Shown here piece by piece: positions 15,379-31,391 of a stretch of 32,556 nt of DNA (its first letter is position 1; every line of letters starts with the position of its first letter). Source of the stretch: Nitrososphaeraceae archaeon (GTDB lineage Archaea > Thermoproteota > Nitrososphaeria > Nitrososphaerales > Nitrososphaeraceae). The stretch covers positions 1 to 32,556 of the forward strand of contig WHTU01000038.1 in the NCBI GenBank assembly GCA_009377575.1, in the 5' to 3' direction. The notes under the pieces are model-generated. The model was given only the letters and a program-made list of their open reading frames with translations. It was not told where the DNA came from and made no database searches. Both the position numbers and the translations under genes were made by a program.

Positions 15379-16641
15379 TCATCGCTGCTGTCTTCCTTCA
15401 ATTTCCTGTAATCTCACTGTTAAAGCCACAAGCTGGTCTGACAAATGTGCTATCGCATCATCTTTCATCTTGTCCCTTTCTCGAGATGACTGGTTTAATT
15501 CTTCCAGTTCCTCTATCTTGCTTTGTATGTCTGCACCTTGTCGTTCCAGTTGATGAACATTTAGGAATGTTAGATATGGTTCAATCTTTTTAAATATCTC
15601 CGCCTTCTCAGAATCTTTTTTTCGCCAGTACGTAGAACCAATATGCCCGATAAAGTATTCAGAAAAATCAAAATAGCCAAGGTCCGAAATAGTTGTCTTA
15701 ACAAATCGTCTAAATGAGTGAAGTGTAATCTGTCTTCTATTTTGATTACCATCCTCTCTTTCGCCCTTGCCCATTCTGTCAAGTGTTTTGGCAAAAGACT
15801 TTGCTATATCATCGTATATCCCATCAGGGTTTGGCATTCTCTTTGTTTGATAAACAGCAAATAGTAGATCCATCCCCTCTTTAGAAGGCGTTCTATATTC
15901 TGTTACTATTTTTCCATCTTGGTCGTAGCAAACTCTTCTCTTTCTATACTTGTAGCTTAGCCAAGATTTTAGCTGTTGTGTTACCTCTTCTGTTAGAAAT
16001 ACGACTCTATCAGCTTTAGTTTTAGTGTATTCTCCCCTTACAAAAACCTGAGCAGGTTTTGATTCTAAATTTAGATCCTTGATACGAACAGATAATGCTT
16101 CTACAGCTCTAAAACCACCTGCTGCCAAGAACATAACATACGTCTTCAAACGTACATCTGAACATGCATTTAGAATATCAACTACATCTTCCTTAGACAA
16201 TGCTTCTTTATTCTTTCTGACTATCTTTGGCAGTCTTACCTTTAATTTGAATTTTCTAGGACTGATATCAATATCAGAGTATTCCAAAAAGTTCTTGATT
16301 GTTATGATATAGTTTTTTAATGAATTTGGAGAAATGTTGTTATTAGTCCTTTGCTTTAAGTACAAGATATACTTACTAAAGACATCATAAGGATCCATCT
16401 TTCCTATTTTCATTTTTGTAACTATCTCTTCAATTCCAAGACCATATTGATCGGAGGCGAACATACGAAATTTCTTTAATCTTTCACTATATTTCTGTGC
16501 AGTTGACTCATTACCTATCGCTACGCTAGTCAAATATCTGGATAGCAATGAATCGTCGTCGATGATTGTTGAAATCTTGTTTTTAGTAGTAAGACTGCGT
16601 TGGCTAGTTCTAGCTGAAGTTGATGCAGAAATAGACTTCAA
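15379..16641 (-). CDS. Tyrosine recombinase / integrase, intact
   Basis: 420 residues. The N-terminal half is a core-binding (SAM-like) domain. The catalytic half shows the tyrosine-recombinase set: Arg178 in GGFRAVEAL, a basic TKTKADR beta-hairpin near 206-212, His308-x-x-Arg311 in LHSFRR, His333 in IGHIGSTYW, and the probable nucleophile Tyr338. A C-terminal coiled coil (about 362-420, QLERQGADIQSKIEELEELN in part) may mediate oligomerisation. The gene is complete, so an integrative element with a working recombinase may border here. A truncated integrase of a different subfamily lies head-to-head, 60 nt away. Confidence 0.9.
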   Translation of the reverse strand: MKSISASTSARTSQRSLTTKNKISTIIDDDSLLSRYLTSVAIGNESTAQKYSERLKKFRMFASDQYGLGIEEIVTKMKIGKMDPYDVFSKYILYLKQRTNNNISPNSLKNYIITIKNFLEYSDIDISPRKFKLKVRLPKIVRKNKEALSKEDVVDILNACSDVRLKTYVMFLAAGGFRAVEALSVRIKDLNLESKPAQVFVRGEYTKTKADRVVFLTEEVTQQLKSWLSYKYRKRRVCYDQDGKIVTEYRTPSKEGMDLLFAVYQTKRMPNPDGIYDDIAKSFAKTLDRMGKGEREDGNQNRRQITLHSFRRFVKTTISDLGYFDFSEYFIGHIGSTYWRKKDSEKAEIFKKIEPYLTFLNVHQLERQGADIQSKIEELEELNQSSRERDKMKDDAIAHLSDQLVALTVRLQEIEGRQQR

Positions 16642-16701: not shown

Positions 16702-17235
16702 TGCACTTCTAATCTGTACATTTTCCGTCATTCCGTGCTGACTCAAAAGTCACAGATATTAAAAGAGGCGACCTTGAGAGATCATGCAGGTTGGAGCATC
16801 AATTCAAAAATGCCCTCTGTTTATCTCCATTATTTCGGAACAGAATCATGCAATTCGCTACTAGAAACATTTGGAGTTGTCAAAAAACAGAGCGGTCAAG
16901 GGTCGTTTCAGACTTCGAAACTATGCCCAAGTTGTAAAGAGCCAAATAAACAGGATAGTAAGTTCTGTGCCAGTTGTAAGATGGTATTGACATACGACGC
17001 ATATAGTGAAACACTCGAAAAAGAGCAAAAGATTCCAGATGATGCTGTTGTTAATATATTACAGAATTGGTTGAGCAAATGCAATGATATGAGAACATTA
17101 AATTTTAATATGCAATATTTGATTAAACTAAATACTAGAAATAGTAGAAAACGTAGATACCTGCCAATAAGTTTCCACAATTTAAAATCTGAAAATCAGG
17201 GATTGTACAGTACTATTTTGAGTAGTACAAGGTAA
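16702..17235 (+). pseudogene. C-terminal part of a second tyrosine integrase with zinc ribbon
   Basis: The frame, entered just after an in-frame stop, begins IFRHSVLTQKSQ and continues TLRDHAGWS, PSVYLHYFGTES. These are the catalytic Arg/His box and nucleophile Tyr of an archaeal integrase, but the N-terminal domain and the first catalytic Arg are missing. A zinc ribbon follows, CPSC-x8-11-CASC, with KMVLTYDAYSETLEK. The tail ends RRYLPISFHN-LKSENQGLYSTIL. A GTG at 16735 is the first start codon, too late to restore the active site. The tail (about 17095-17220) has a second copy at 26841-26996. Confidence 0.75.
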
Positions 17236-17293
17236 TATTGAGCTTTACCTTGGTCATTAGCCGGTATAAACTATATACTATGCGGAAGGTACT

Positions 17294-17488
17294 ATGAGTA
17301 ATGGCCGAAACAAGGGGTTGAAAGGGTATCAGTGTGAATGTTGTGGTCATAAATGGACACCAAGAGAAGATGAGCGACCAAGAGAATGCCCAAAATGTAA
17401 GAGTGGGTATTGGGACGTGGTGAGAAAACAAGATATGGCAAAACGACTGGCTGGAATAAAAACCGAGGATCCAGATTGTAACACATAA
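17294..17488 (+). CDS. Small zinc-ribbon protein
   Basis: 64 residues from ATG. A basic N-terminus precedes C-x2-C-x16-C-x2-C (YQCECCGHKWTPR, then ECPKCKSGYWD), the plan of small thaumarchaeal zinc ribbons ending CPKCKSxYW. The tail is helical (MAKRLAG). Size and fold suggest a nucleic-acid-binding accessory protein carried by the integrated element. It follows the integrase fragment by about 60 nt in the same direction. Confidence 0.75.
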   Translation: MSNGRNKGLKGYQCECCGHKWTPREDERPRECPKCKSGYWDVVRKQDMAKRLAGIKTEDPDCNT

Positions 17489-17676
17489 AGCTGAAAACAT
17501 CTGATAATGGACGACATACAGGTTTTATCACGGAGGCGAATGACTCCGGAGCGTTGGGCTGCATAGGCTGGGCTATCGAGAGACACCTTGATGTTATCCC
17601 ACCTAAACTAAAGCCAATATTTCATAAAATTCTAGAGGATACTAAAACTAGGAAAGATATTTTAGTAAGATCATAA
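17482..17676 (+). pseudogene. Coding-like fragment without start, copy 1
   Basis: The frame is open for 64 codons with no ATG/GTG start and overlaps the end of the zinc-ribbon gene by a few bases. It reads RHTGFITEANDSGALGCIGW, then AIERHLDVIPPKLKPIF, and ends LVRS. A diverged copy lies at 19391-19470; between them several differences fall in third positions (ATC/ATT, GAG/GAA, CAC/CAT, TTG/TTA), as expected if both descend from a translated gene. Family unknown. Confidence 0.4.
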
Positions 17677-17759
17677 AAATAGATCGTTTTTATAATTTGT
17701 TGCACAAGCGACCGCTGCAGGATACAAATACTGCAAAGGGGAAATTCTGGCACCCTATA

Positions 17760-17804
17760 GGTAGGAGTAAGTGACCAGGCTCTGATCTGCCTGGTTATCT
17801 TACC
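17760..17804. repeat. Hairpin element in block A (first)
   Basis: The left arm GGTAGGAGTAAGTGACCAGG and right arm CCTGGTTATCTTACC enclose a 10-nt loop; CCAGG/CCTGG and GGTA/TACC pair with mismatches between. CTCTTTT follows. Confidence 0.6.
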
Positions 17805-17910
17805 TCTTTTATAATTTGTTGCGAACACACCAACGACAGTATCTCTAGCTACTGCCGCTGATAACAAATCCAACCAACTTCAAGCGCCCCATCATGACGG
17901 CAAACAGGTT

Positions 17911-17959
17911 AGATAGGAATAGTTACCAGGTTTGGGGATAGCCTGGTAGCTTCCTATCT
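17911..17959. repeat. Hairpin element in block A (second)
   Basis: AGATAGGAA and TTACCAGG on the left face CCTGGTA and TTCCTATCT on the right around an 11-nt loop. This is one of the strongest stems in the window, about 17 pairs with small internal bulges. Confidence 0.7.
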
Positions 17960-18049
17960 TCATTAAAAAAAGATAACTCAGTTCAGGAAAGTCTTTTATG
18001 TTTATGTCAAGATAATACACCACGCCGCAAACCTGCACAATGTGAAGGG

Positions 18050-18098
18050 GGTAGTGGCGGCCAGCATATCTGCACAAATTCTCTTGGTCGTCCCTACC
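18050..18098. repeat. Hairpin element, GGTAGG family, in block A
   Basis: GGTAGTGGCGGCC pairs with GGTCGTCCCTACC. The loop begins AGCATATCTGCACAAATTCT, nearly the same as at 20224 and similar to that at 3327. TTTTTC follows the right arm, as in an intrinsic terminator. Confidence 0.7.
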
Positions 18099-18307
18099 TT
18101 TTTCTAAACCTTTCTACAAAGTTTTAATAACCCATTTTGTGAATTCGGAGAATCACAACCAAGGTTTTAACTGTCCGGTGAATCCATCATGGAGGGCTGG
18201 AGATTTTTTTGCATTGGTATTGCTAGCTCTTAATAGTCTAACCTCACAATTTCAGGATATATAAAAAATGCCTGAAATATGAAGTTTAATATGGTTTGTC
18301 ATAAATG

Positions 18308-18361
18308 GGTAGGGCGGCCAGCAGGCTCATTTAATTAGACAAAATCTCTTGTCATCCTACC
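18308..18361. repeat. Hairpin element, GGTAGG family, in block A (last)
   Basis: GGTAGGGCGGCC and TGTCATCCTACC pair at their outer ends. The interior begins CAGCA and ends GACAAAATCTCTTG, echoing the ACAAATTCTCTTGG of the 18050 copy. Confidence 0.6.
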
Positions 18362-18417
18362 TTGCAGAGCTCCAACAGTTCTGATCCGATTAACAGACAG
18401 GTGTCAATAGTTAATTA

Positions 18418-18480
18418 GACGCTTAAATATACTAAAAAAATTAGTGATCGCAGCCGCAACTACTCTGTCTCATAAACCTC
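18418..18480. other. Spacer between block A and phasin upstream repeat
   Basis: AT-rich, no gene; part of the 125 nt that block B lacks. Confidence 0.3.
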
Positions 18481-18727
18481 GTACCACATGTAACAGCTTT
18501 TATCTTTTGAAGACCGTGCATTTCAGGCTGCGATCTTCAGGTTATACTCGGCTTATCTTTGCATAAATGGCCTTAATTTCATCATCTGGCAAACTATCTC
18601 AATAGCTTAAACGAATGGCCATGTTCAATGATTTTTTATTAATTTTTGATGTAATTCTATGGTATTAAATGGTAACTAATGCCATAAATTGCCAATGTAT
18701 ATATAAGTGTCATGAGAAGATATCACC
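18481..18727. repeat. Conserved 247-bp upstream region of phasin-like gene, copy 1
   Basis: It is matched without gaps by 28674-28920, with about 16 differences by hand count and only about three in the middle 190 bp. It includes the promoter. A 19-nt piece of it (CATTTCAGGCTGCGATCT region, 18518-18536) also appears at the right edge of block B. Confidence 0.85.
18698..18706 (+). promoter_or_regulatory. TATA box of the phasin-like gene
   Basis: TATATATAA centred about 26 nt before ATG 18728, the textbook archaeal spacing for a leaderless transcript. The paralogous position at 28891-28899 reads TTTATATAA. Confidence 0.75.
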
Positions 18728-19243
18728 ATGTCAAAACCACAACACGTAGTAGCACAAGACTTTCAACACACATTGCACAGATCATTAGATGAAACAAAAG
18801 AGAATGTAAAAAAATCAATAGATGAAGCGAGAACTCAAATTCCACAATTTACCCATGTAGTTACTAACTATCAAGAGCATGTCTTACAATCCACTGGAAA
18901 AATGGTAGAAGATTATGTTGAAGCTCAAAAATCAGTAATGAATGCTGTCTTTAACTCTGCAAACCCGTACTATGGAAATGCTAATAGAGTGTTTAATTAT
19001 TGGTTTACTCCAAAAGTCACTGCAGAGATATATGCCAGATCAGTCAGCAATATTGCTGAAAACGTCTCAGCATCAGCTAGAATAGGTAACGAAATCTTAT
19101 TTGGAAACATTGAAGCTTTGGGAAACGATTTCGAACGAGCTCAACGACACACAAAAGAGTTTACGAGAATCAATGCGAATACAGCAAAAGCCATTGAAAA
19201 TACAGCAAGAGAAACGGCAGCAGAGTTTTCAGTTAATAGCTAG
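18728..19243 (+). CDS. Phasin-like helical protein (polyhydroxyalkanoate granule type)
   Basis: 171 residues, almost wholly amphipathic helix with no cysteine. It resembles the phasin-like proteins of soil thaumarchaea, thought to coat polyhydroxyalkanoate granules. Typical stretches are LHRSLDETKENVKKSIDEAR, LQSTGKMVEDYVEAQKS and NANTAKAIENTARETAAEF. The N-terminus begins MSKPQHVVAQDF. The truncated paralog at 28921 has about 38 more residues before its PQHVV, so this copy has probably lost its original N-terminal segment. After the stop, the next bases encode the paralog's C-terminal REVYRHRTAC in another frame. Strong TATA box at 18698. No PHA synthase gene is in the window. Confidence 0.75.
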   Translation: MSKPQHVVAQDFQHTLHRSLDETKENVKKSIDEARTQIPQFTHVVTNYQEHVLQSTGKMVEDYVEAQKSVMNAVFNSANPYYGNANRVFNYWFTPKVTAEIYARSVSNIAENVSASARIGNEILFGNIEALGNDFERAQRHTKEFTRINANTAKAIENTARETAAEFSVNS

Positions 19244-19343
19244 AGAAGTTTATAGACACAGAACTGCCTGTTAACAGAAATCTGATATATTAGAAATTAC
19301 TCTAGTCATCAACTGATGACAAGGTAAGCTAATTATTTTGCTC

Positions 19344-19395
19344 ACCCAGCATTTTGTTTTTTTTTCAAACAATGAAATAGCTTCAAAAAAGACGA
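19344..19395 (-). pseudogene. Short fragment of the duplicated helical protein
   Basis: The minus strand reads SFLKLFHCLKKKQ, matching SFLKLFHCLKER in the pseudogene at 22124-22746. Differences in the matching codons are largely synonymous (CTG/TTG, AAA/AAG, TTA/CTA), which supports common coding ancestry. Only about 13 codons remain. Confidence 0.4.
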
Positions 19396-19470
19396 CATAC
19401 AGGTTTTATCATAGAAGCGAATGACGCCGGTGTGTTAGCTGTGTGGGCTGGGCTATTGAAAGACATTTTG
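19391..19470 (+). pseudogene. Coding-like fragment, copy 2
   Basis: It reads RRHTGFIIEANDAGVLA, then after a small frame disruption WAIERHFD and a stop. It is the diverged second copy of the fragment at 17482-17676, in the same orientation. Confidence 0.4.
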
Positions 19471-19752
19471 ATTAAGTTCAATTTTGGGGCTGCGGATGAC
19501 TACCGGCTCTAGTGTTGACGGAGATATAAACGAAGAGAATATGTATCTATAACTAACCCAGTATTCAGTCCACTCTTCTCTACAATAATTACAACGAGAT
19601 ACCTGATAAGACAAATTATCATGAATACGATATTTTGGAATGATTGTGATATTGTCCGCTTTACATATACAACGTCTATTAGTTGCAGCAGGTCTTGCAA
19701 GGTTACTGCGTTTATTTTCTATCAGTTTACTCGTGTGCCCACAACACCAGCT
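19453..19752 (-). pseudogene. Zinc-binding protein lacking a start codon
   Basis: A 99-codon minus frame bounded by stops with no ATG, GTG or TTG start. It holds CCGH near the front, then RRCICKADN, then a well-kept block, NITIIPKYRIHDNLSYQVSR followed by CNYC and EEWTEY. An inverted, intact paralog at 22755-22994 shares the block almost residue for residue. There, the position of this copy's ACG codon is ATG, so loss of the start is the likely first lesion. Cysteine pairs CCGH, CIC and CNYC suggest metal binding; function unknown. Confidence 0.6.
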
Positions 19753-19985
19753 CTAGTATGCAGATCATAACTATAACATTTTCTAATATTACACCAGCTA
19801 AAATAGCTCCATCGTATTTAATCTGGCTCACAAAGATTAAACATGAATTGTCAGTCCCTAGACAAGCTCATGGACGATTGGGGGCAAAACTCTAGACTAA
19901 CAATCACCCTGACCCTTTCGTAGCAATTCCACCAACAGACTTCAGATATAAACTACCTATCTTGAATTAGGTAGGTCACCAAAAT
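19753..19985. other. Spacer with no gene seen
   Basis: A 70-codon frame crossing 19683-19895 is a shadow of the zinc-protein remnant. CTACCTATC and GATTAGGTAGG-like strings near 19952-19973 form a weak inverted repeat at the edge of block B. Confidence 0.35.
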
Positions 19986-20090
19986 ATGGACCGTTTTTAT
20001 AATTTGTTGTGCAAACGGCTGCAGCAGTATGCAAATACTGCTAACCACGAAAGAGACCAAACTCATTCTGGCACACCCTATAGGTAGGAG

Positions 20091-20132
20091 GCAAGTCACC
20101 AGGTTCGGGGATAGCCTGGTAGCTTCCTATCT
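20091..20132. repeat. Chimeric hairpin in block B
   Basis: The left arm TAGGTAGGAGGCAAGTCACC matches the first hairpin of block A, and the right arm CCTGGTAGCTTCCTATCT matches the second. CCAGG/CCTGG is the shared core at which the two were joined. Confidence 0.6.
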
Positions 20133-20223
20133 TCATTAAAAAAAGATAACTTAGTTCAGGAAAGTCGTCTTTTATGTTTATGTCAAGATAATACAGCACG
20201 TCGCAAACCTGCACAGGTAAAGG

Positions 20224-20272
20224 GGTAGTGGCGGCCAGCATATCGGCACAAATTCTCTTGGTCGCCCCTACC
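20224..20272. repeat. Hairpin element, GGTAGG family, in block B
   Basis: GGTAGTGGCGGCC / GGTCGCCCCTACC with loop AGCATATCGGCACAAATTCT, counterpart of 18050-18098. The right-arm change T to C improves pairing with the left arm. TTTTTC follows. Confidence 0.7.
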
Positions 20273-20374
20273 TTTTTCTAAACCTTTCTACAAAGTTTTA
20301 AGTGTCCGTTTTATGAATTCGGAGACCGTAACAAGGTTTTAACTGGTCCGAAACCAAAGGCGCGGTGAACCTAT

Positions 20375-20422
20375 GGTAGACGGCTAGAGATTTTTTGCAT
20401 TGGTATTGCTAGCCGTTCTACC
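20375..20422. repeat. Hairpin element, GGTAGACGGCTAG type, in block B
   Basis: GGTAGACGGCTAG (20375-20387) faces CTAGCCGTTCTACC (20409-20422), pairing perfectly except for one extra T. The loop GATTTTTTGCATTGGTATTG is kept in block A at 18200-18222, but A has lost most of both arms. Confidence 0.7.
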
Positions 20423-20510
20423 TCTTAATACTCTAACCTCACAATTTCAGGTATATAAAAAATGTCTGAAATATGAAGTTTAATATGGTTTGTCATGAAT
20501 CATTATGATG

Positions 20511-20563
20511 AGATAGGGCGGCCAGCAGGCTCATCTGATTAGACAAAATCTGGTCATCCTACC
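20511..20563. repeat. Hairpin element, GGTAGG family, last in block B
   Basis: AGATAGGGCGGCC / GGTCATCCTACC, counterpart of 18308-18361, with interior CAGCAGGCTCATCTGATTAG. Confidence 0.6.
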
Positions 20564-20705
20564 TTGCAGAGCTCCATCAGTTCTGATCCGATTAGCATTT
20601 CAGGCTGCGATCTACAACATCCCTATTAAAAGTTCAAATGTATTATAGAATTGTTAGCAATTACTGTAAAAGCTATTATAGTCACGGAATTCATACTGTG
20701 GCTAC

Positions 20706-21152
20706 ATGACAAAAGCTTCATCGAAAAAGCGGTCATCTGTCAAATATGATGTCATTATTAAGGCCAAGGCAACAACTGCGAGGATCGTAGACATTAGCAA
20801 TGAAATCGTGAGGTTTGAGAGTAATGATAAGGGACAAGTTACTGGAAAACACTATTCAGGAGTTCACTGGGACACGGTGGAATCCACATTGTTAGCAGAT
20901 GGAAGCGCGACTCTGACCATAAGATATTTCCATATGACTAATAAAGGCGAATCGATTACGGGAACTGGAACTGGCACTCAGATGGCTCCAAACAAAAGAG
21001 GAATTACGAAAGTTACTGCCGAGGGAACTATGTGGACGTCTGCTCCTAGATTATTGCATCTAAATGGAGGTAGATGGACAGTTGAAGGGGAAATGAATAC
21101 CATTAAAGAGACTGTTGTGGTCCGGGGTAATTTTACCACCTCAGGGATATAA
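20706..21152 (+). CDS. Beta-rich protein of unknown function
   Basis: 148 residues from ATG 20706, without signal peptide, membrane span or cysteine. A basic N-terminus (KASSKKRSS) precedes alternating strands such as SATLTIRYFHMTNKGESI, a TGTGTGTQ turn, ITKVTAEGTMW, WTVEGEMNTI and ETVVVRGNF. The pattern suggests a small beta-barrel or lipocalin-like fold. It resembles the fragment at 14770-14966 in layout, and I recall related thaumarchaeal proteins without known function. The gene is intact and follows block B by about 90 nt. Confidence 0.65.
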   Translation: MTKASSKKRSSVKYDVIIKAKATTARIVDISNEIVRFESNDKGQVTGKHYSGVHWDTVESTLLADGSATLTIRYFHMTNKGESITGTGTGTQMAPNKRGITKVTAEGTMWTSAPRLLHLNGGRWTVEGEMNTIKETVVVRGNFTTSGI

Positions 21153-21356
21153 AAAAACCTATTACAATATCTCAAACCAAACCTCTAAATAAGTTGCGCT
21201 CTTAAGCGGAGCTATTCACTCTTTCAAGGTATTTTGATATCTATTGAGGATATTAGATTAAAGGCTGTCTAAACACAAATACATTTATCGTATAAATCTT
21301 CTACAATATGATAACTCTCATAAATCTGATATTTTTTCTATCTGAACTACAAGCGG
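21153..21356. other. Short intergenic region
   Basis: AT-rich space between convergent genes; nothing seen. Confidence 0.3.
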
Positions 21357-21560
21357 TTAACGCATAGCCAAACATTCATCTTCAGACCATGCTCGCTTGA
21401 AGGGCATAATCTTCTTTCTACGTGGAGGTTCATCCCACCAACCCATAAGACCTTTACATCTACTGCACCGAAGCTCCGTTCTAGAATCACTTATCTTAAA
21501 CTCTATTGTCCTAGAATCAGTCAACGATTTATTGCAAATATAATCATCGGTCCAATGCAA
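21357..21560 (-). CDS. Small zinc-binding protein, start uncertain
   Basis: 67 residues from a TTG. It has CNKS near the front, a CSRCKGLMGWW knuckle in the middle, and a basic tail PPRRKKIMPFKRAW followed by SEDECLAMR. An ATG at 21568 encodes MSYC but is one base out of frame, so the true N-terminus may be disrupted. A 57-nt stretch of the tail (21369-21425) is repeated exactly, inverted, at 24076-24132. No family recognised; small zinc-binding proteins are typical of this region. Confidence 0.5.
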   Translation of the reverse strand: MHWTDDYICNKSLTDSRTIEFKISDSRTELRCSRCKGLMGWWDEPPRRKKIMPFKRAWSEDECLAMR

Positions 21561-21769
21561 TACGACATATTATAGCCAAAATAAGATATTACATGATATG
21601 ATCCATATGACTATTAGAATAGTACTGGAATTGGTACTAGTTATATCTAGCAGGCTTAACATACGCTTTTATAGGTCTATCTTTCTAATAAGGCGGAGAA
21701 TGTATCAATTAGAGCAACTCGAAAAATAAGAGAATTAATAATTACGTTAGTCTTACAGTAGAAACAAAC

Positions 21770-22030
21770 CTAAGTCGTATCTGTCGAACCTGCTGCTACC
21801 TCTGCAGTAGCAAATCTACTTCCCACAGAATTAATCTTAATCTTTACGTTTTTGTCTCCGGCCTTTGCGCTTTTTACAAAAATTACTAGGCCGCCTATTC
21901 TTGCAATACCGTCTCCTCCTCTGCCTGTGTCAGTAATATCTACGGTGTACTCTTTGCCTGTTTCTACAGGTTTTGAGAAGCTATTCGTGTTCTGTCCGTA
22001 ACTCATTAAAAGTCGCAATATAGTAGGCAT
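21770..22030 (-). CDS. TRAM-domain RNA-binding protein, copy 1
   Basis: 86 residues. The TRAM core is clear: PVETGKEYTVDITDTGRGGD, GIARIGGLVIFVKSAKAGD and VKIKINSVGSRFATAEV. Single-domain TRAM proteins are abundant archaeal RNA chaperones that act rather like bacterial cold-shock proteins. The annotated ATG (22030) gives MPTILRLLMSYGQN; the second ATG at 22006 (MSYGQN) is the start I expect from other TRAM proteins. A near-identical paralog is at 30849-31109. The core is intact in both, so both may be functional. Confidence 0.9.
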   Translation of the reverse strand: MPTILRLLMSYGQNTNSFSKPVETGKEYTVDITDTGRGGDGIARIGGLVIFVKSAKAGDKNVKIKINSVGSRFATAEVAAGSTDTT

Positions 22031-22123
22031 TATGGTAATATGAACTAATGTATTAACGTATTAAAAGCTCTATCACTATCCAAAATGTCGGTCTAAATGC
22101 TAGTTGGTTTCAGGTTATGACAT

Positions 22124-22746
22124 CTATTTACCCATTCGCTTTAGTTGTTGGTTTTTAATATCTATAGCTCTGTCCAGATCCGACAATTGAGCATTCCATA
22201 GTACTAGTTTATTCATCAAATTTCTCTTTTGACCTTCTAAATTTATTATGTTATTACTAAGACATTGAACTCCGTCAAATCAGCTAAATCATAATTTGCG
22301 TATCTGAAAAACTTTGAGATTTGTTTTTCATTGAGTATATGACGCTCTTTCAAACAATGAAATAATTTCAGAAATGACGGTAGATAAGTTTTAATCTCAT
22401 TGTACACGAATGCCAGCTCATGAAGATCATTCAAGTAGCTCTGGGTCATCATTAAAAAATTCTGCAATTATCTCTTTAGTTGGTTGGGATAGATTGGATG
22501 TATGGGTATTAATCGTTAAGGTCGCCTTTCGTATTTGATTATTAGTATTAGTGAAAGACTGATCATTTTCAGGGTTTTCTAAATGAATATCATCATGATG
22601 TACCGAATTTGTATTCTCTATAGCTGTCTGGCTATCTAAACTTACTATCTTATTATGATTATCAGGCTTAGAGAAGAATACTTTTTAATATCATCAATCT
22701 GTCTAATGAAATTGTTAATGTTTGAAAGTATATTTAGATCTGGCAT
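22124..22746 (-). pseudogene. Helical / coiled-coil protein with several frameshifts
   Basis: Four frame pieces in one direction together make a protein of about 200 residues. MPDLNILSNINNFIRQIDD starts at 22746; VFFSKPDNHNKIVSLDS and an Asn/Asp-rich linker follow; then EIIAEFFNDDPELLE; then LHELAFVYNEIKTYLPSFL, FHCLKERHILNEKQISKFF, RYANYDLADL; and finally CLSNNIINLEGQKRNLMNK with DRAIDIKNQQLKRMGK up to TAG 22124-22126. The end is a coiled coil. I recall similar proteins on thaumarchaeal integrated elements, function unknown. It lies upstream of the TRAM gene on the same strand, and the pair is duplicated at 30849-31338. Confidence 0.6.
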
Positions 22747-22754
22747 AGTGGCGC

Positions 22755-22994
22755 ATGAGTAATCTCACACTAAACAAACACAGCGACCCTACTAGGACTA
22801 CTAAACATAGCAAATGTATAACTGACAATATAACAACCATTCCAAAATATCGTATTCATGATAATTTGTCTTATCAGGTATCCCGATGTAACTATTGTGG
22901 AGAGGAGTGGACTGAATACGGGGTTAGTTATAGATACATATTCTCTTCTTATATATCAATATCAACGCCAGCGTCAGTAGCGTACGTCAACTGA
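22755..22994 (+). CDS. Small zinc-binding protein, paralog of 19453-19752
   Basis: 79 residues from ATG. The front half (MSNLTLNKHSDPTRTTKHSK) corresponds to the cysteine-bearing front of the 19453 copy but has lost most of its cysteines. The core IPKYRIHDNLSYQVSR-CNYCGEEWTEY is nearly identical to it. The end is short and Ser-rich. It diverges from the helical pseudogene on the other strand with 8 nt between the two starts. Only one Cys pair remains, so metal binding is doubtful. Confidence 0.5.
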   Translation: MSNLTLNKHSDPTRTTKHSKCITDNITTIPKYRIHDNLSYQVSRCNYCGEEWTEYGVSYRYIFSSYISISTPASVAYVN

Positions 22995-23212
22995 AAAATA
23001 TCTTCATCTTCGATCACTGACCTATTGGTGACCATCAGGTGGCGGAAACGGGTAGTCATCCACACATAATGACCTTTAGTGGACTCGGAAGGCATTTCTA
23101 TACTAATTAGATAGATATCTTACAAGTTGTTTTACAATCTTTTAGCCAAAGTTGGCTAGTTAGTAACGATGAAATTAATATGAAAGGAAAAAGAAGAAAA
23201 GAGCATATTTCA
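22995..23212. other. Spacer with no gene seen
   Basis: No frame or structure worth naming. Confidence 0.3.
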
Positions 23213-23882
23213 CTATGGTACTAATTTTGCACAGCAAAAACCTGTATAGTGGCATCCCCTTCACCCTCCACCCACATTACTGTAAATTAACTCAAAGGTG
23301 TTTGGTGAACCATGGATTCCTTGGAAGACGTGTGTTGGATTTACCGTATTTATACCGTCGACAGCACGTATTCCTCCACCGGTTACCACCTCGTCAGGGT
23401 CGCAGCTTGCTGTTGTTGTCCTCGTTTGGCCTGGCGGTATGTTTACTGAGCTACCAGTAATTGATCTCACTTCTAATTCCTTATCTGTTCCAGGTGGTCC
23501 TTACTGCCCTTGAATGCCTTGCGATCCCGGAGGGCCGGCTGGTCCCTGGGGTCCAGTAGCGCCCAGTATCTCTTTTAGGTCCTGCTAATCCTTGGGGTCA
23601 TGATGGACCCTGTAACCCTTGCAATCCTTGCAATTCAGGATTAGAAATTTGTAAGCTCAGTGGTGTACTGACAACCCCTTCACCTTGCGTTTGCGGACTG
23701 TTTACTGCACAATTAACATTCCCCGCACAGTTGTTAATGACAGACTGCGTTTGAGTATTTACATATTTTGCATATGCATAGTACTTAAGATCATCACCAT
23801 CATTTACTATCAGGGATACAGTAAATACTGCTATAACTACCACAAATATTTCAAAGTGTATGGCTTTGCCAATAGCCTTCAT
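23213..23882 (-). pseudogene. Secreted collagen-like protein, multiply broken
   Basis: The minus frame from ATG 23882 encodes a signal/anchor helix (FEIFVVVIAVFTVSLIV) and a linker, then the start of a Gly-x-y region (LQGLQGLQGPS), where a TGA occurs. After it, GPQGLAGPK, a frame change, then TGPQGPAGPPGSQGIQGQ, a TAA, and GPPGTDKE follow. A beta domain comes next (RSITGSSVNIPPGQTRTTTA, then CDPDEVVTGGGIRA), and further shifts before DATIQVFAV and CAKLVP at 23213. Collagen-like repeats followed by such a globular domain are known in thaumarchaeal cell-surface proteins. Two stops and at least two frame changes make it a pseudogene as written. Confidence 0.75.
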
Positions 23883-24202
23883 ACAGGTTATGTGAATATC
23901 ATTATTTATATGGACTTAGAGTGATTCCAATACTAATTTAGTCACATATTTCTTTATACATTGCCATGGTTGATTAATTCTAATTCTAAGGCGAGCAGAA
24001 TTTTTTAGGATAAGTGGTTGAACAGAGCTTCGATGCATAGGGTATCATAGACTAATGGATTGTTGAGATGAATCACCACGTAGAAAGAAGATTATGCCCT
24101 TCAAGCGAGCATGGTCTGAAGATGAATGTTTGACTATGCTAACATGATGTGTTACAATTTATTCAATATATTATCATTCACATAATGAATAATATTCTAT
24201 CT
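23883..24202. other. Intergenic region containing an inverted gene fragment
   Basis: Apart from the fragment at 24067-24147 I see no gene. Confidence 0.35.
24067..24147 (+). pseudogene. Inverted fragment of the 21357 zinc protein
   Basis: It encodes DESPRRKKIMPFKRAWSEDE, CLTMLT, stop. It matches the last third of the minus-strand protein at 21357-21560, with 57 identical consecutive bases (24076-24132). There is no start or zinc knuckle here. Confidence 0.7.
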
Positions 24203-24784
24203 CTATTCCATCCAATCTCTGTATTCAAGATACTCAAGTAGTTTTAAGAGTTCTTCTATTCTTGCCTGCCCGCCACTTTTATTTTTGCATAATTCATAGT
24301 GATGCCTTATCATTTTATCTTCATCAAAGGATATAATACCTTTATCTTCCACAATATCAAAAAATTTATCTTCTTTTCCTAGATGGTCTGTGATAAAAAT
24401 AGCATACGATTTAAGAAACCTAGCTATAGGTTCTTTTGAGCCAGTCTGTTTCCCTTCATTGATGCATTTCCTCGGAATTAACAGTTCTCTCTTGAACATT
24501 CTGGATATCCTTCTTCCAAGCTCATGTTCTATCAAAAATTTTCTAATATCTTCTGAAAAGTTATTCTTATCATGAGTACTTGGGAAATATACCTCCTCTT
24601 CTTTACCATGATGAAATGTGTCAATAGGTTCTTCCATAATTACTGAGGCAATCTCAAGATCTTCAAGTAAAATATCACTATCTTTGTCAGCATAAATCTT
24701 ATCTGAACATTTTTGTATTACTTCTCCAAATCTTCTTACAAATAGATGATCTTTCTTGAGATCTGATGTTGCCAGATGAAACAC
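24203..24784 (-). CDS. Hemerythrin HHE-domain-like protein
   Basis: The proposed GTG start at 24784 gives about 193 residues beginning MFHLATSDLKKDHLFV; the open frame extends 32 codons further upstream, but that part looks non-coding. Iron-ligand-like residues follow the HHE pattern: KKDH in helix 1, DTFHHGKEEEVYFPS in helix 2, LIEHELGRR in helix 3, and FITDHLGKEDKFF in helix 4. HHE proteins bind a di-iron site and oxygen or nitric oxide, and may act in redox or NO sensing. The C-terminus is charged helix. It resembles the archaeal DUF438/hemerythrin type. Intact in the core. Confidence 0.8.
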   Translation of the reverse strand: MFHLATSDLKKDHLFVRRFGEVIQKCSDKIYADKDSDILLEDLEIASVIMEEPIDTFHHGKEEEVYFPSTHDKNNFSEDIRKFLIEHELGRRISRMFKRELLIPRKCINEGKQTGSKEPIARFLKSYAIFITDHLGKEDKFFDIVEDKGIISFDEDKMIRHHYELCKNKSGGQARIEELLKLLEYLEYRDWME

Positions 24785-24884
24785 TTTATAGACGAACCTA
24801 CTTATACTTTTATGGGTTGAAAGCCAACAACGGTAATGGAAATCCCAATTTAAATACAATAAACAAATACCTGGAAGCAATGTA

Positions 24885-25381
24885 GATAGAGATCAATCCA
24901 AGCAAAAGTTATGAGATCAGCATTAAGATAATTTTCGGAAGCTTTTCCAAATTTCATAACAATAAGCTCCAAATACCAGAGACAAGTGTTATCATACTAT
25001 TAGTAGAGATGACATCACACGATATTGCTGTGTGTTTTAATCGTAAGCCCTGAAAGTCTGTAACTGGAAGATCATTCTTCATAAGTCTTAAGGAATGAGA
25101 ATTAATAAGCATCTATTTTTGATATTCTTAATAGTACAATTCTCAATAATAGTAATGTCATGTTTAATCGGACTCACTTCTGTAGCTTTTTGTCACACAT
25201 GTAAATTTCACGTCTCCAAATAAAATTCGATTTGAAACTAAAGATCTGTCAAATGTTTCTTTTTCGAATATTGATACAACCCGAATTATTTGGTGAAGAT
25301 ACCTGTTTTTGGTGATGTAAAAGAGGTAAAGGATAGGTTTAAGATAAAATAAAAAATTGGTGATGGCAGTATTCCCGGGAT
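24885..25381. other. About 500 nt with no gene seen
   Basis: Frequent stops in all frames and no motif. Short A-rich tracts lie near the right end, downstream of the secreted-protein gene. Confidence 0.5.
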
Positions 25382-26032
25382 CTATCTCACGAAAAGTTCT
25401 GTGTTTCTATCTGCTGTATCTTCAAGTACAACACATACTGCTGATGGCGTAGTATCTCCTGGTCCCACTCCGACGGGGATCAAACTGAAGGAAATCGCAT
25501 CTACCACATTGTTTCCTGGAGATAGGGTCAATGGTTGATTGCTAAAGGAATCAGTGCCTGTAAACGAATTTGGAATTCTAGCCTGAAGGGCATCTGTACT
25601 TTGTATCCTTACCTGACCTGGGGATTGGAAGGTTATTTTGTCTACCGCTCCTATCGCATTGGTTGGACATCCTGTGCCTGCGATTGATTTCAGTGTTATG
25701 AAGTGATTGTGGAATATGGGATTATTGCCGTTACCACCCTGTGTTGCGCTGTCTAGTACACCTTTGTGTGTGGTACTTACTATTATTCCTTGCCCGCTGG
25801 CGCTGCCCGAAGTTAGTAAGCCATAACCAAATACTGATGGATTTCCGTTACCGTTCGTTGGGATCAGTCCATCGGTTCTAAATAAGGCATCTAGTCCGGA
25901 TGGGTTTTTGCGTACAAGTACCTGTTCTAGATTCAGAAAGTCTGCTAATGCTGAGACTGCGACTGGTGATATGACCATTGCAGCTACTAATGATGCTACC
26001 ACGAATCCGCTAACAATTAAGGTGTTTTTCAT
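25382..26032 (-). CDS. Secreted protein of unknown function
   Basis: 216 residues with a clear signal peptide (MKNTLIVSGFVVASLVAAMV, cleavage probably near SALA about residue 30). The mature part is Gly/Asn/Thr-rich and beta-like, with two cysteines far apart (CPTNAIGAV and AVCVVLE) that could form a disulfide outside the cell. Stretches such as NHFITLKSIAG, ITFQSPGQVRI and VVDAISFSLIPVGVG suggest a single beta-sandwich. I recall similar exported proteins in Nitrosocosmicus-type archaea but no function. The gene is intact and stands alone. Confidence 0.7.
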   Translation of the reverse strand: MKNTLIVSGFVVASLVAAMVISPVAVSALADFLNLEQVLVRKNPSGLDALFRTDGLIPTNGNGNPSVFGYGLLTSGSASGQGIIVSTTHKGVLDSATQGGNGNNPIFHNHFITLKSIAGTGCPTNAIGAVDKITFQSPGQVRIQSTDALQARIPNSFTGTDSFSNQPLTLSPGNNVVDAISFSLIPVGVGPGDTTPSAVCVVLEDTADRNTELFVR

Positions 26033-26298
26033 GTTTATGGAATTATAAATCAGATTATCGTATTTCTGAATTAAGCAGCCTTTGTCCCCAAGAATAATAT
26101 GAGATATATAGCAGAGAATTTATCCTCATCGATCTCTGGATACATCCCCAACTATTTAGTTTATAGAATTCTTGTCAATCCTTGGCGTTCCCATCTTCCT
26201 ATTATCGATTGATACTGGTCCATATATCCCCTAGTATTCATAATAGCCCATGGTGTCGATTTCAACTAGTATATTTTGTTAGAGCTCATTTCTTACTT

Positions 26299-26600
26299 AT
26301 GACCATATTACCTTTAATCTTCTTTCTTGTTGCCGGCATACTCCAACTGTTCTGGATAATACCAATGATAGAGATGGGGAGGGGTTTGGTATGCTATTGG
26401 AATTGTGGGTACTGTTATTCTGATTAGAATATGGGCAGTAACTAGAATCCCTGACAATCCAATAATTGGTAGAGATGGACCTATAAATGAAATGGCTATT
26501 ACTATAGAAGTATTTCAGATTTGCATACATTGTAATATCAGCTGTAATTAGAGCAAATGAGAAAGTTGGCAAGCCTCAAATGATTAAGGAGAAGCGATAA
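26299..26600 (+). pseudogene. Small multi-span membrane protein with two frameshifts
   Basis: From ATG 26299: MTILPLIFFLVAGILQLFWI, then a +1 change near 26375. The next frame reads WGGVWYAIGIVGTVILIRIW, RIPDNPIIGRDGPINE and MAITIEVFQI. After a second change comes FAYIVISAVIRANEKVGKP, ending at TAA 26598-26600. Joined, it has three hydrophobic helices with a conserved-looking RxPDNPIxGRxG loop, a pattern I recall from thaumarchaeal membrane proteins of unknown function. As written it cannot be translated whole. Confidence 0.6.
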
Positions 26601-26840
26601 GCTTCATTTTCTTTGAATCTTTCAATCAACCTCTTCATAATGACCTGTTCCAGGTGGTAATTCATACATGTAGAATAGAGCAATAATATGGATAAACAGA
26701 CTAGGATAATAAAGGAAAGCGTTTCATGTTAGGACATTATTGAGATCTGACGTTGCGTTCAAGTTAGTATTTTGTGATCATAAACAGATTTAAATATTGA
26801 TTATTTTTAGTTACCAATGCTCTTCTACATCTACAGCTAG
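26601..26840. other. Spacer with no gene seen
   Basis: Nothing recognised. Confidence 0.3.
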
Positions 26841-26996
26841 GATGAAACGAGAGCATTAGATTTTAACTCGAAATATTTGATTAGACAGAATATTAAAAAT
26901 AGTAAGAGGCATAGATATCTACCAATAAGCTTCGGCAAACTCAGCTCTGAAAATCAGGGATTGTACGACATTATTATTGAAAGACAGAAACAATAG
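26841..26996 (+). pseudogene. Second copy of the integrase C-terminal tail
   Basis: It reads DETRALDFNSKYLIRQNIKN, then SKRHRYLPISFGKLSSENQG, LYDIIIERQKQ, stop. This matches the end of the truncated integrase at 16702-17235 (LNFNMQYLIK, then RRYLPISFHN, SENQGLY). Catalytic and zinc parts are absent. It lies in the same orientation about 10 kb from the first copy, and the sugar-dehydrogenase signal peptide starts 1 nt after its stop. Confidence 0.65.
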
Positions 26997-28401
26997 ATGC
27001 TAGTTACTAATTGGATTGGACTCTTATTATCATTATTGGCTCCAACCATATTTACTAATTCTCTTACTAAAATACAACCAACTTTGGCACAAGTCAAAGA
27101 ACCAATTTTCTATGCCCAGTAACGATACAACTAAGTCACAAAATAGTACTCAGGAACGGCTTCCGAAACAGGAAGGCTTCTCGGTGAGTCTGCTCACGAC
27201 AAACCTTAGCCAGCCACATAACATTCTCTATGGCCCTGATAATACTCTCTGGATTACCGAGCGTTTTGCCAAAAATATCACACGAATTGATCCGAGCAGC
27301 GGACTCGAACTTAACAGCATGCCAGTCCCTAATGTCCACCAATCCGAAGGTCAAGATGGCCTCATGGGTATGACGTTTGACCCTGACTTTAACAATACAC
27401 ATCATATTTACATCGCCTACACCTACGACGCTGCTGATGCCAGTGAGGAACTTGACCGCCGCACCAAAATCACTCGCTTCACATATGATTCAACAGCAGG
27501 TACTATCACTGAACCAATGGATGTAATCAAGGGACTTTCCGGTAGTACTGATCATAACTCAGGTCGTATGACATTCGGTCAAGATGGAATGCTATATTAT
27601 ACAATAGGCGATCAGGGCAAAAACTATCTCTCTTACTACTGCCTGGAAAACCAGGCACAAGAGCTACTAATGGCGGCAGACCAGATCGCGGCCCAGAATT
27701 GGACAGCATATGAAGGTAAGGTGCTACGAATGAACCCTGATGGCTCCATCCCCTCCGATAATCCAACGATCAATGGCCTTCTCAACCACATCTTCACGTA
27801 CGGACACCGTAACGCGCAGGGCATTGCAATGGGTCCCAGTGGTGATCTCTACATCTCGGAGCATGGCGACAAATCCGATGACGAGGTCAACCATCTCGAA
27901 GCAGACGGGAACTACGGCTGGCCTTATACTGCAGGTTACAACGACAAACAAGCGTACCAATTCGTCAATTGGTCAGCCGCGGAGAACTGTGAGGACCTGA
28001 CATTCACTAACATAGCACCTCCGCCAGCAGGCGTGCCTGTGATGAACGAGAGTGAGTTTGGGGCGTCCAACTTCATGCCACCGCTTCACACATTTTACAC
28101 AGTCGATAATGGTTATAACTTCACGGTGCCCGGATGTGACTACGTCTGCTGGCCGACCGTTGCGCCATCGAGCTTGCGACTCTACACGGCAGATGTTATT
28201 CCTGGATGGGAGAACACCTTCCTGATGACAACCCTGAAGGCCGGTAGAATTTTCCAGCTCGCGCTGAACGAGAACGGCACGGCGCTCGCGCGTGACCCTG
28301 TAGAACTCTTCCGCTCGGAGAACCGCTATCGTGATGTGGCATTTGACCCTGATGGCCGCACCCTGGTTCACTACTCGTATTCAGATATCAAGATAATATG
28401 A
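26997..28401 (+). CDS. Soluble PQQ-dependent glucose/aldose dehydrogenase, frame-split signal peptide, truncated end
   Basis: The main frame (27016-28401) closely follows bacterial soluble PQQ glucose dehydrogenase, which oxidises aldose sugars outside the membrane. Visible are the catalytic-base motif DHNSGR (179-184), IGDQGKN (197-203), GHRNAQG (263-269), SDDEVN and NYGWP (287-303), and WPTVAPSS (379-386). A signal peptide, MLVTNWIGLLLSLLAPTIF, is encoded from ATG 26997 in another frame and joins the mature frame if one T is changed in ATTTTC near 27106. The end stops at ENRYRDVAFDPDGRTL plus 14 unrelated residues, roughly 50 short of the family. GC content is far above the surroundings (40 of 60 bases at 28261-28320), indicating transfer from bacteria. 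Both ends are damaged. Confidence 0.8.
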
Positions 28402-28673
28402 CTAGTCAATAATCAAAACGCTCTCGACTACGTGATCGCCATAATAGATAGTTGATAATATTAATTGATATGAAGCCAATGAAACGCAAGACGTTAGAAT
28501 TAGGCTGCCTAATACAAAAGATATAACGCATATTAACGCCATTTTAATACAGCCTAATATGCATGTAAATGTTGACGAGGGTAAAATCGAGATAGATATC
28601 ACCAATGCTCATGATTGGGTTGAACGTATAGATAAAACAACTAAAGAGATATGCGATGGTCCAAATTGCAATC
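28402..28673. other. Region between sugar dehydrogenase and phasin repeat
   Basis: A 9-bp perfect inverted repeat, ATTAGGCTG (28499-28507) and CAGCCTAAT (28550-28558), precedes an open frame starting ATG 28559. That frame reads MHVNVDEGKIEIDITNAHDW then VERIDKTTKEICDGPNC, and after about 40 codons runs into the repeat at 28674. It could be the front of a small gene cut by the duplication, but no family is recognised. Confidence 0.4.
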
Positions 28674-28920
28674 GTACAACATGTAATACATTTTATCTTT
28701 TGAAGACCGTGCATTTCAGACTGCGATCTTCAGGTTATACTCGGCTTATCTTTGCATAAATGGCCTTAATTTCATCATCTGACAAACTATCTCAATAGCT
28801 TAAACGAATGGCCATGTTCAATGATTTTTTATTAATTTTTGATGTAATTCTATGGTATTAAATGGTGACTAATGCCATAAATTGCCGATGTTTATATAAC
28901 TGCCTTGGCGAGATATCAAC
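28674..28920. repeat. Conserved 247-bp upstream region, copy 2
   Basis: Gap-free counterpart of 18481-18727 including the TATA box (TTTATATAA at 28891-28899). Most differences lie in the last 50 bp before the ATG and the first 20 bp. Confidence 0.85.
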
Positions 28921-29091
28921 ATGTCAATGTCACAAAGAGTAGAAGAGAAAGCTATTGAAGACACTCAAAGAGTAGCTGAAGAAGCCAAGAGTATAAAAGA
29001 TAAACACGATGCAGCTCAAACTTTACAACAAGTTGGACAACCACAACACGTAGTAGTCAGAGAAGTTTATAGACATAGAACTGCCTGTTAA
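28921..29091 (+). pseudogene. Truncated phasin-like paralog
   Basis: 56 codons: MSMSQRVEEKAIEDTQRVAE, EAKSIKDKHDAAQTLQQ, then VGQPQHVV, which matches the start of the intact copy (PQHVV at its residues 4-8). It then jumps to VREVYRHRTAC, which corresponds to bases just after the intact copy's stop. The central roughly 165 codons have been deleted. The 3' flank (CAGAAATCTGATA onward) matches that of the intact copy. It has a promoter and a start, so a short peptide could still be made. Confidence 0.75.
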
Positions 29092-29439
29092 CAGAAATCT
29101 GATACATTAGAAATTACTCTAGTCATCAGTTGATGGCTAGATGAACTAATTATTTTGCAATATAATTGCTAGCTATTTAATCTATATATTGACGTGGACT
29201 TATCACCGCCGCAGGCGAGAGTTTGGGTGATAATAGAGAATGAAGAGACGTGGAAAGACCCGGATATAAAAGACTTTAAAAATACAGAGATTTGCTATTT
29301 TGGAGCTCAAAATCTATAACAAATGATCATTTCTCAGGAATTTATAGCCTCTCTAATTTGGCTCAAAGCTGAGATGATAATGCATAAAAACTATAGCTGC
29401 GATTAAAGACTTTTAGTCTACTAATTAAGACTTATAGAA
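29092..29439. other. Intergenic region with a hairpin
   Basis: No gene. TTATCACC (29200-29207) and GGTGATAA (29226-29233) form an 8-bp perfect stem around an 18-nt loop, a possible transcript structure. Confidence 0.4.
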
Positions 29440-29811
29440 ATGGTCAGACTTAATATAGTATATGATTTGCTGCAAACAAAAAAGCTCTCTGCGAATACCA
29501 TGAAAAATAATCAGATTTTACAGTCTATGGATAAAATCTATTTTATGATTTGTAATTCGTGTTACTGGTGTGCGTCTTATTTCGGCGTTGATGACTTAGA
29601 ATCTTTATCAACATCCTCGTCGCATGTTCTCGATTGTCACGTTTGTAATTCTCATAACACTGAACTAATACCTATCTCAACTGACGAATCGTTTAGAATA
29701 GAATATAGTGCAACTAAAGGTATAGAGATAGAATTCTATAAGAGTAACAAGGTTGTTGTTAGACAGCAATCTGCTAGTGAGTATGAAGCTCCACGACAAA
29801 TACGAGGATAA
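29440..29811 (+). CDS. Small zinc-binding protein
   Basis: Up to 123 residues from ATG 29440; a later ATG at 29500 is also possible. The core is C-x2-C-x2-C (MICNSCYWCASYF) followed after about 23 residues by CHVC, then SHNTELIPISTDESFRIEY and TKGIEIEFYK. I recall this plan (CxxCxWCASY, CPMC, ESIPIxxNExY, RGVxLEF) as a frequent thaumarchaeal family of unknown function. A zinc ribbon plus a small beta domain is likely. No operon partner. Confidence 0.6.
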   Translation: MVRLNIVYDLLQTKKLSANTMKNNQILQSMDKIYFMICNSCYWCASYFGVDDLESLSTSSSHVLDCHVCNSHNTELIPISTDESFRIEYSATKGIEIEFYKSNKVVVRQQSASEYEAPRQIRG

Positions 29812-29886
29812 CTTGTGTTCTGTTGAATTGTAACAATCATTGATTGATGGATAGGCTATTGATAGATCCATCTGATAAATTGACAA

Positions 29887-30022
29887 CTAAATAATATCAT
29901 GTTTAATCGCGCAATATTTATGATAGTAGTGTCTTGGTCTTCCACTACTCACGACAACATGATCACGTGTAATTCGGCCTCTACAAGAGACACAAAGTCC
30001 ATTCTGTTTTGGCTTCTATCAT
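29887..30022 (-). pseudogene. Short zinc-binding protein, frameshifted
   Basis: ATG 30022 gives MIEAKTE, then the frame stops. One base over it reads NGLCVSCRGRITRDH, SSGRPRHYYHKYCAIKHDII, stop at 29887. C-x2-C followed by YYHKYCA is typical of small thaumarchaeal zinc proteins ending HKxCAxxLNII. Total length 136 nt is one more than a multiple of three. The main frame itself has no start codon. Confidence 0.5.
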
Positions 30023-30119
30023 TCTGAGTATGCGATTTATTTTTTCATTAGGATTAATGATTAATGGGAGAACCAGATTACCAAATATTAATGAGCATAC
30101 AAATGAAATTTGTTATACA

Positions 30120-30449
30120 CTAACTTGGAGCAAAAACACAATAAAATTTGACCTCGTGTGGGCTTGAACTTAAACTAGCGCCTAATGTACCAATTAAATT
30201 CAATGACCTCACTAGCTTTCGGACTTTCGATTTTGCGATAACTGCGGGTAAGTGAATCAAATGATCTATATATTGACGAGTCTTATACGTTGTTTCTCTG
30301 TTAATTCTAATGTACAGATCAGTTGTCTTAATAGTTATTGTAATCAAAATAATTGGAATAATTGCATCTAGTATAATACTACCCCAGCAGCAAATGTCCT
30401 TTTTTTTACATGTTCGTCTTGTTCTATGAATACCGATGAGAGAATTCAT
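30120..30449 (-). CDS. Possible small membrane protein
   Basis: 109 codons from ATG. It has a Cys/Lys-rich front (CKKKDICCW), one hydrophobic helix (SIILDAIIPIILITITIK), and a basic region (RINRETTYKTRQ; AKSKVRKLVRSL). No family recognised. It could be chance in AT-rich DNA. Confidence 0.3.
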   Translation of the reverse strand: MNSLIGIHRTRRTCKKKDICCWGSIILDAIIPIILITITIKTTDLYIRINRETTYKTRQYIDHLIHLPAVIAKSKVRKLVRSLNLIGTLGASLSSSPHEVKFYCVFAPS

Positions 30450-30848
30450 GTGTATTGCAGAAATCCTGATACCGTTAATAAAAACTTGCTCTTAGAGCAT
30501 AAACAAAAATTAATGCCAAGGCCAATTATGGATGATGATCACTATGTCAATACTCATTATTACATGCAAAATCAACTTAATGACAAGATAAAATCTAGTT
30601 CGATCAGCTTATCAACATCATACTGAAAACAATATATTTGAATCCATAAAATTGATAAATGGGTATTAGAATAAAATATTTAATATTGGTATCGATAATT
30701 CGCCTGTAGCGTTTGAACAAGATCGTGCTATACTATACCTGAAATAACGTAGCACAACCCTATTACTCATTAAGAGTAACTAGTGATATAATTATGGGTT
30801 AGGATAAAAATAGAAAAGTTATTTAGTTTAGCGATATAAACAAAAAAC
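30450..30848. other. Stretch with no convincing gene
   Basis: A 66-codon plus frame (30426-30626) is rich in His, Asn and Ser without motif. Nothing else seen before the TRAM gene. Confidence 0.35.
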
Positions 30849-31109
30849 TTAAGTTGGTTCTGTTGAACCCGCTAGCACTTCTGCTGTAGCAAATCTACTT
30901 CCCACAGAATTAATCTTAATCTTTACGTTTTTGTCCCCTGCCTTTGCGCTTTTTATAAATATTATAAAGCCTTGTATTCTTGCGATACCGTCTCCACTTC
31001 TACCTGTGTCAGTAATGTCTACTGTATACTCTTTGCCTGTTTCTACAGGTTTTGAGGAACCTCTCGTGTTCTGTCCGTAACTCATTAAAAGTCGTAGTTG
31101 GGTAGGCAT
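30849..31109 (-). CDS. TRAM-domain RNA-binding protein, copy 2
   Basis: 86 residues, paralog of 21770-22030. The core VETGKEYTVDITDTGRSGD, GIARIQGFIIFIKSAKAGD and VKIKINSVGSRFATAEV differs at only a few positions. The second ATG (31085, MSYGQN) is the likelier start. Non-coding bases on both sides are also duplicated, so this is a recent segmental copy rather than an old paralog. Confidence 0.9.
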   Translation of the reverse strand: MPTQLRLLMSYGQNTRGSSKPVETGKEYTVDITDTGRSGDGIARIQGFIIFIKSAKAGDKNVKIKINSVGSRFATAEVLAGSTEPT

Positions 31110-31190
31110 TATGGTAATATGAATTAATGTATTAATGTAGTAGAATCTGTATCACTTTCTAATATGTTCTAATGTTTTGTCTTTTGACAT

Positions 31191-31338: not shown

Positions 31339-31391
31339 CTGTGGTCTCCTAGTACAATTTATCACACTGTTAAAATATGTAATTTTACTGT

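Follow-up and report, generated by a model that had tools for sequence, protein, structure and literature searches.

Contig WHTU01000038.1 of the Nitrososphaeraceae archaeon assembly GCA_009377575.1 carries two open reading frames (ORFs) for a phasin-like protein, here called copy 1 and copy 2, behind closely similar upstream regions, raising the question of how two genes that differ so much in what they retain came to share their surroundings. The window analysed is this complete contig (C312; 32,556 nucleotides), part of a 3.9-Mb draft genome of a soil ammonia-oxidising archaeon whose genus includes the assemblies TH526, TH5895 and TH5896. An earlier note on this DNA had proposed a very recent duplication followed by reciprocal truncation, or constraint on the upstream region through a long operator or an embedded RNA. 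Our analysis favours another explanation, to which we assign a probability of roughly 0.7: the pair belongs to a decaying family of phasin-like genes controlled through one short palindromic operator, with a PhaR-like protein as its candidate reader. Paralogues are named by contig (C255, C310, C122 and so on), with C255 serving as the reference for the full-length gene.

Structure of the two copies

The full-length paralogue C255 encodes 210 residues, shares 90% amino-acid identity over copy 1 and has the same promoter upstream. Compared with it, copy 1 has lost N-terminal sequence in frame, MSK being followed directly by PQHVVAQDF..., and an early stop removes the last four residues (SVNS-stop against SVNNQRSL-stop). 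The block missing from copy 1 and present in copy 2 measures 35-37 residues, close to the roughly 38 first estimated. It is the least conserved part of the family and several members lack much of it, with short N-termini in TH526 (C733, C627a), TH5895 (C705) and TH5896 (C122, C139). The C733 gene starts MSTREQSQHVVAQDF, and its upstream region matches the window in pieces. An orthologue naturally beginning MSKPQHVV, which the earlier note had named as the finding that would speak against truncation, therefore nearly exists, as MSTREQSQHVV... in TH526. The ratio of non-synonymous to synonymous substitution (dN/dS) for copy 1 is 0.25-0.52 in comparisons with C255 and with longer relatives that are more distant, suggesting purifying selection on copy 1 itself. 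With its TATA box about 26 bp before the ATG and the transcription start placed by archaeal promoter spacing, the copy 1 transcript is probably leaderless.

Copy 2 has lost 487 bp relative to intact C255, a large deletion as the earlier note had it, amounting to 162 codons plus 1 nucleotide and not to about 165 codons. The deletion is out of frame; consequently REVYRHRTAC, taken before for the preserved last 10 codons, comes from reading the former end of the gene and its 3' flank in a different frame. Both the conserved core and the reading frame are gone, as in a pseudogene, and from its sequence copy 2 is best described as a dead, frameshifted deletion relic.

The family is multi-copy, with 15 tblastn matches in TH526, five in this genome and seven in TH5896, and frameshifted or cut members occur elsewhere (C292b and C235 in TH526; C310 in this genome). 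Birth and death of paralogues thus explains the pair, the two copies being read as an open and a dead member of a paralogous family that both expands and decays and whose phasin-like proteins are predicted to be all-helical.

A conserved palindromic operator

Aligning the upstream regions of the paralogues in the genus revealed a 35-bp palindrome, TGG-N6-ATGG-N9-CCAT-N6-CCA, lying 3-5 bp upstream of the TATA box and comprising four half-sites with 10-bp spacing within each half. The scan took in 70 family genomes and 300 genomes at the level of the order, with the reversed pattern as control. This genome holds five exact sites and four with one mismatch, against none for the control. The order as a whole yields 28 exact sites, every one inside the family, and again none for the control. 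Phasin-like coding sequence lies within 400 bp downstream of 25 of the 28, almost every site has a TATA-like box at 25 bp or less, and the genes they precede fall into three sequence types (copy 1, C353/C327 and G046/G051). Of the three remaining exact sites, the one at C122 retains operator and TATA box with no gene, one (G051 C264) precedes a 91-residue protein, and one (G041 C96) has no TATA-like box and lies inside an aminopeptidase-like reading frame. In further genera, homologues with no more than 33-42% identity still have recognisable, degenerate operators upstream. By this comparison the predicted operator is both conserved and specific.

Elsewhere in the genome, a one-mismatch operator with a TATA box (G000:C144:45112-45146; L104, L122) precedes a Rieske-type ferredoxin gene by about 200 bp. 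It is the only operator in this genome with neither a phasin-like gene nor a plausible relic nearby.

A PhaR-like protein as candidate regulator

Genes for polyhydroxyalkanoate (PHA) storage are known in ammonia-oxidising archaea, and this genome encodes PhaC and PhaE, providing the PHA-making background expected around phasins at the level of genes, not of polymer. Adjoining phaE is the gene for P0003, a protein of 98 residues whose C-terminal segment is nearly invariant and whose type occurs in 56 of the 70 family genomes. The PhaR-like gene stands next to phaE here and in other genera, and is not beside phaC in this genome. The C-terminal domain of P0003 matches PDB chain 2glw (E 4.7e-5), which we take to be a Pyrococcus protein of AbrB-like swapped-hairpin fold, and P0003 accordingly counts as carrying an AbrB-like domain. 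Its Pfam MazE match falls below cut-off, and its haloarchaeal homologues are annotated AbrB/MazE/SpoVT. The best plasmid matches are AbrB-domain proteins of haloarchaeal maoC-phaR-phaP-phaE-phaC clusters, that is, PhaR. With 44% identity over 81% of the query (E 3e-11), P0003 is homologous to the PhaR of phaRPEC clusters.

According to published work, PhaR of Haloferax mediterranei is of the AbrB type, with an AbrB-like domain at its C-terminus, and regulates phaRP negatively in response to PHA (PMC7137286, PMC9049629); its cis element is described as semi-palindromic and as immediately preceding the B recognition element (BRE) (PMC6085418). The H. mediterranei phaRP promoter did not turn up in the plasmid collection. 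The H. larsenii phaRP promoter contains CCAT-N6-CCAT-N6-CCAT, the half-site and 10-bp spacing found in each half of the operator, an array that arose in 2 of 20000 shuffles. From this shared half-site and spacing we infer that P0003 may be the operator-binding regulator.

Under the proposed mechanism, each family gene would carry the same short promoter module, the four-half-site palindrome plus TATA box. The PhaR-like AbrB-domain protein encoded beside phaE would bind the palindrome and block access of TBP and TFB. Once PHA granules form, it would relocate to their surface, and joint expression of the phasin-like genes would follow. Binding of granules by the family proteins is likewise putative.

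Origin of the upstream identity

The match between the two upstream regions is indeed gapless, running over 264 bp (18479-18742 against 28672-28935) at 92.8% identity, and the 3' flanks agree at 89% over 108 bp; matching flanks and a TATA box in each copy had been reported before and are found as described (Table 1). The first 190 bp contain six differences and not about three, four of them within the first 20 bp. Identity is uneven: the distal 160 bp reach 96% and the proximal 98 bp 88%, and in the 59 bp immediately preceding the ATG, which hold 10 differences, it is 83%. Similarity therefore peaks far from the gene and is lowest at the promoter, opposite to what would be expected if regulatory constraint alone had caused the match.

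The upstream 247 bp are composite, combining a distal 160 bp of repeat pieces with the proximal family promoter. The distal part is absent upstream of the C255, C733, C669 and C708 paralogues and is built of fragments present on other contigs, one of them resembling, on the opposite strand, a zinc-ribbon coding sequence. It is probably non-functional, repeat-rich DNA shared by local duplication or conversion, not by constraint. Conservation of the upstream core at orthologues, which the earlier note had proposed to check, is found for the proximal promoter and not for the distal 160 bp. Its long operator is right only in shorter form, since what the family conserves upstream is about 70 bp, palindrome plus TATA box.

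Weighing the alternatives

A very recent duplication of one gene, with reciprocal truncation and possibly sub-functionalisation, would fit the 96% identity of the distal segment and the position of both copies on one contig within a patchy colinear duplication of about 5 kb (17084-22275 against 26842-31342). The individual segments contradict it. Over its 89-bp promoter, copy 1 shares 92.1% identity with TH526 C733 and C669 and 88.8% with copy 2, while copy 2 is 96% identical to C255 in its N-terminal block and in its 3' flank, the latter only 88% to copy 1. The distal block alone makes the two copies closest relatives, so they are not closest to each other throughout as a recent tandem pair would be. 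Given also the short N-terminus of the TH526 orthologue and the out-of-frame deletion in copy 2, such a reciprocal split is improbable. The high identity of the window copies over about 250 bp might suggest an embedded RNA or a regulatory region of that length, but either is scarcely credible: folding gives z = -0.22 with no structure supported, Rfam has no match in the upstream region, and the distal 160 bp are the repeat fragments missing from the four paralogues named above. Assembly or binning error is very unlikely as the source of the two-copy arrangement. The window is a whole contig of a 380-contig draft with 2.4% contamination, and its repeats could misassemble; yet the segments, at 83-97% identity, are too different for typical collapse, and TH526 C733 independently has similar upstream pieces before a short-N gene.

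Several observations weigh against the preferred explanation, a decaying phasin-like family under one PhaR-read operator. No member reaches a curated Pfam cut-off (best E 1.1e-4, none at genome level), and the AlphaFold model, all-helical, is of low confidence, with a mean predicted local distance difference test (pLDDT) score of 61. At phaC, phaE and phaR there is no operator within three mismatches, so no autoregulation through the operator is seen. Across genera, PhaR and the operator do not pair cleanly. PhaR was not found in TH526, the assembly richest in sites, whose genome is fragmented. Genus g11, lacking PhaR, has no exact operator yet shows an excess of two-mismatch sites over the reversed control. 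For copy 1, dN/dS against its closest relative is 0.75, a value from four differences only that leaves selection on this copy by itself unproven, and its frame stays open in 29% of random simulations. The sub-threshold profiles, the weak model and the operator-free phaC and phaE would suit a family unrelated to PHA, for example membrane- or DNA-associated helical proteins, whose palindrome and TATA box are real and whose regulator is another DNA-binding protein. The PhaR homologue beside phaE in several genera, the half-site and 10-bp spacing shared with the haloarchaeal phaRP promoter, and the fit to the AbrB pseudo-consensus TGGNA-N5-TGGNA (PMC11497800) make such a family, though a serious contender, unlikely. 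The consensus fit is imperfect, in that position five of the outermost half-site does not keep its A.

The phasin label given in the earlier note is plausible and unproven. It relies on the helical prediction, on weak Pfam matches to Phasin_2 (PF09361; 5 of 17 members) and the PhaE type (PF09712; 3 of 17), and on context; a PDB sequence search with the family returned nothing meaningful, and NCBIfam had no specific match for it.

Genomic surroundings

The features of the two copies are collected in Table 1. A short way upstream of the duplicated, repeat-rich region is a tyrosine recombinase of the phage integrase family (15379-16641, minus strand), and the region may be the remnant of an integrated element. 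The window between 17 and 31 kb is mostly non-coding and filled with direct and inverted repeats of about 84-85% identity (17921-18395/20094-20597; 21763-22275/30842-31342; 19500-19683/22797-22980). Within the repeat tract upstream of copy 1 is a small ORF (17294-17488, plus strand) with a zinc-ribbon motif (CECCGHKW...CPKC), and comparable tracts are present on C365 and C316 as well as in TH526. Directly upstream of the copy 2 relic is a glucose/sorbosone dehydrogenase gene (27016-28401, plus strand). One ORF follows copy 1 (20706-21152) and another follows copy 2 (29440-29811), while downstream of the C255 paralogue relatives of both occur in order (L040:11273-11777, 12030-12366), as if each duplicated block of the window had lost the gene that the other kept.

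Table 1. Features of the two phasin-like copies in the window
Feature	Position	Strand	Remarks
Distal upstream segment, copy 1	18479..18638	+	96% to copy 2; dispersed-repeat pieces
Operator, copy 1	18660..18694	+	35-bp palindrome, exact match to TGG-N6-ATGG-N9-CCAT-N6-CCA
TATA box, copy 1 (TATATATAA)	18698..18706	+	3 bp after operator, ~26 bp before ATG
Copy 1, open phasin-like gene	18728..19243	+	171 residues; without variable N-terminal block and last 4 residues
3' flank, copy 1	19234..19341	+	89% to copy 2, 92% to C255
Distal upstream segment, copy 2	28672..28831	+	Counterpart of 18479-18638
Operator, copy 2	28853..28887	+	One mismatch (last CCA is CCG)
TATA box, copy 2 (TTTATATAA)	28891..28899	+	
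Copy 2, relic	28921..29091	+	56-codon ORF; N-terminal block, 487-bp out-of-frame deletion, former gene end in other frame
3' flank, copy 2	29051..29158	+	Closest to C255 (96%)

Significance and comparison with known systems

The pair itself is probably ordinary gene-family decay, and the operator with its probable link to PhaR is the part worth following. We lean towards a genome-wide PhaR-phasin regulon in Nitrososphaeraceae, in which many dispersed paralogues of at least three sequence types would each be preceded by an inverted operator of four half-sites, with an AbrB-type homologue of haloarchaeal PhaR as its reader, the coat genes multiplying, shortening and dying while the switch is kept. 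The operator, having almost no background, offers a direct handle on granule-coat genes in Nitrososphaeraceae genomes, and its link to PhaR names a testable regulator. In the literature searched, neither phasins nor a PHA regulator are described for ammonia-oxidising archaea; PhaE and PhaC are reported to fall under carbon limitation in N. viennensis (PMC12542715).

Copy 2, the frameshifted C310 and the operator and TATA box without a gene at C122 are relics beside intact copies, as in birth-and-death multigene families with solo promoters and pseudogenes, and as a process this is nothing unusual. Like bacterial phasins (PF09361, PF09712), the proteins are small and predicted to be all-helical, in an organism with a class III PHA synthase; unlike them, they give no match over the curated cut-off, and a separate true PhaE is present. 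The Bacillus AbrB regulon (PMC11497800, PMC11135676) shares the AbrB-type domain, the half-site sequence and the 10-bp spacing, whereas here the N-terminal region of the regulator differs and a strict four-half-site inverted array serves one gene family.

The haloarchaeal PhaR-PhaP system, exemplified by the phaRPEC cluster of H. mediterranei, differs in having a single phaP co-transcribed with phaR, whereas here many dispersed phasin-like genes carry the operator and PhaR lies outside their operons. Each site here is a palindrome of four half-sites in inverted arrangement, and in sequence the proteins do not clearly resemble haloarchaeal PhaP. Common to both are a homologous AbrB-domain PhaR encoded next to phaE, a semi-palindromic element immediately preceding the BRE/TATA region, and CCAT half-sites at 10-bp spacing, as in the H. 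larsenii phaRP promoter. The comparison suggests an AbrB-PhaR switch common to haloarchaea and ammonia-oxidising archaea.

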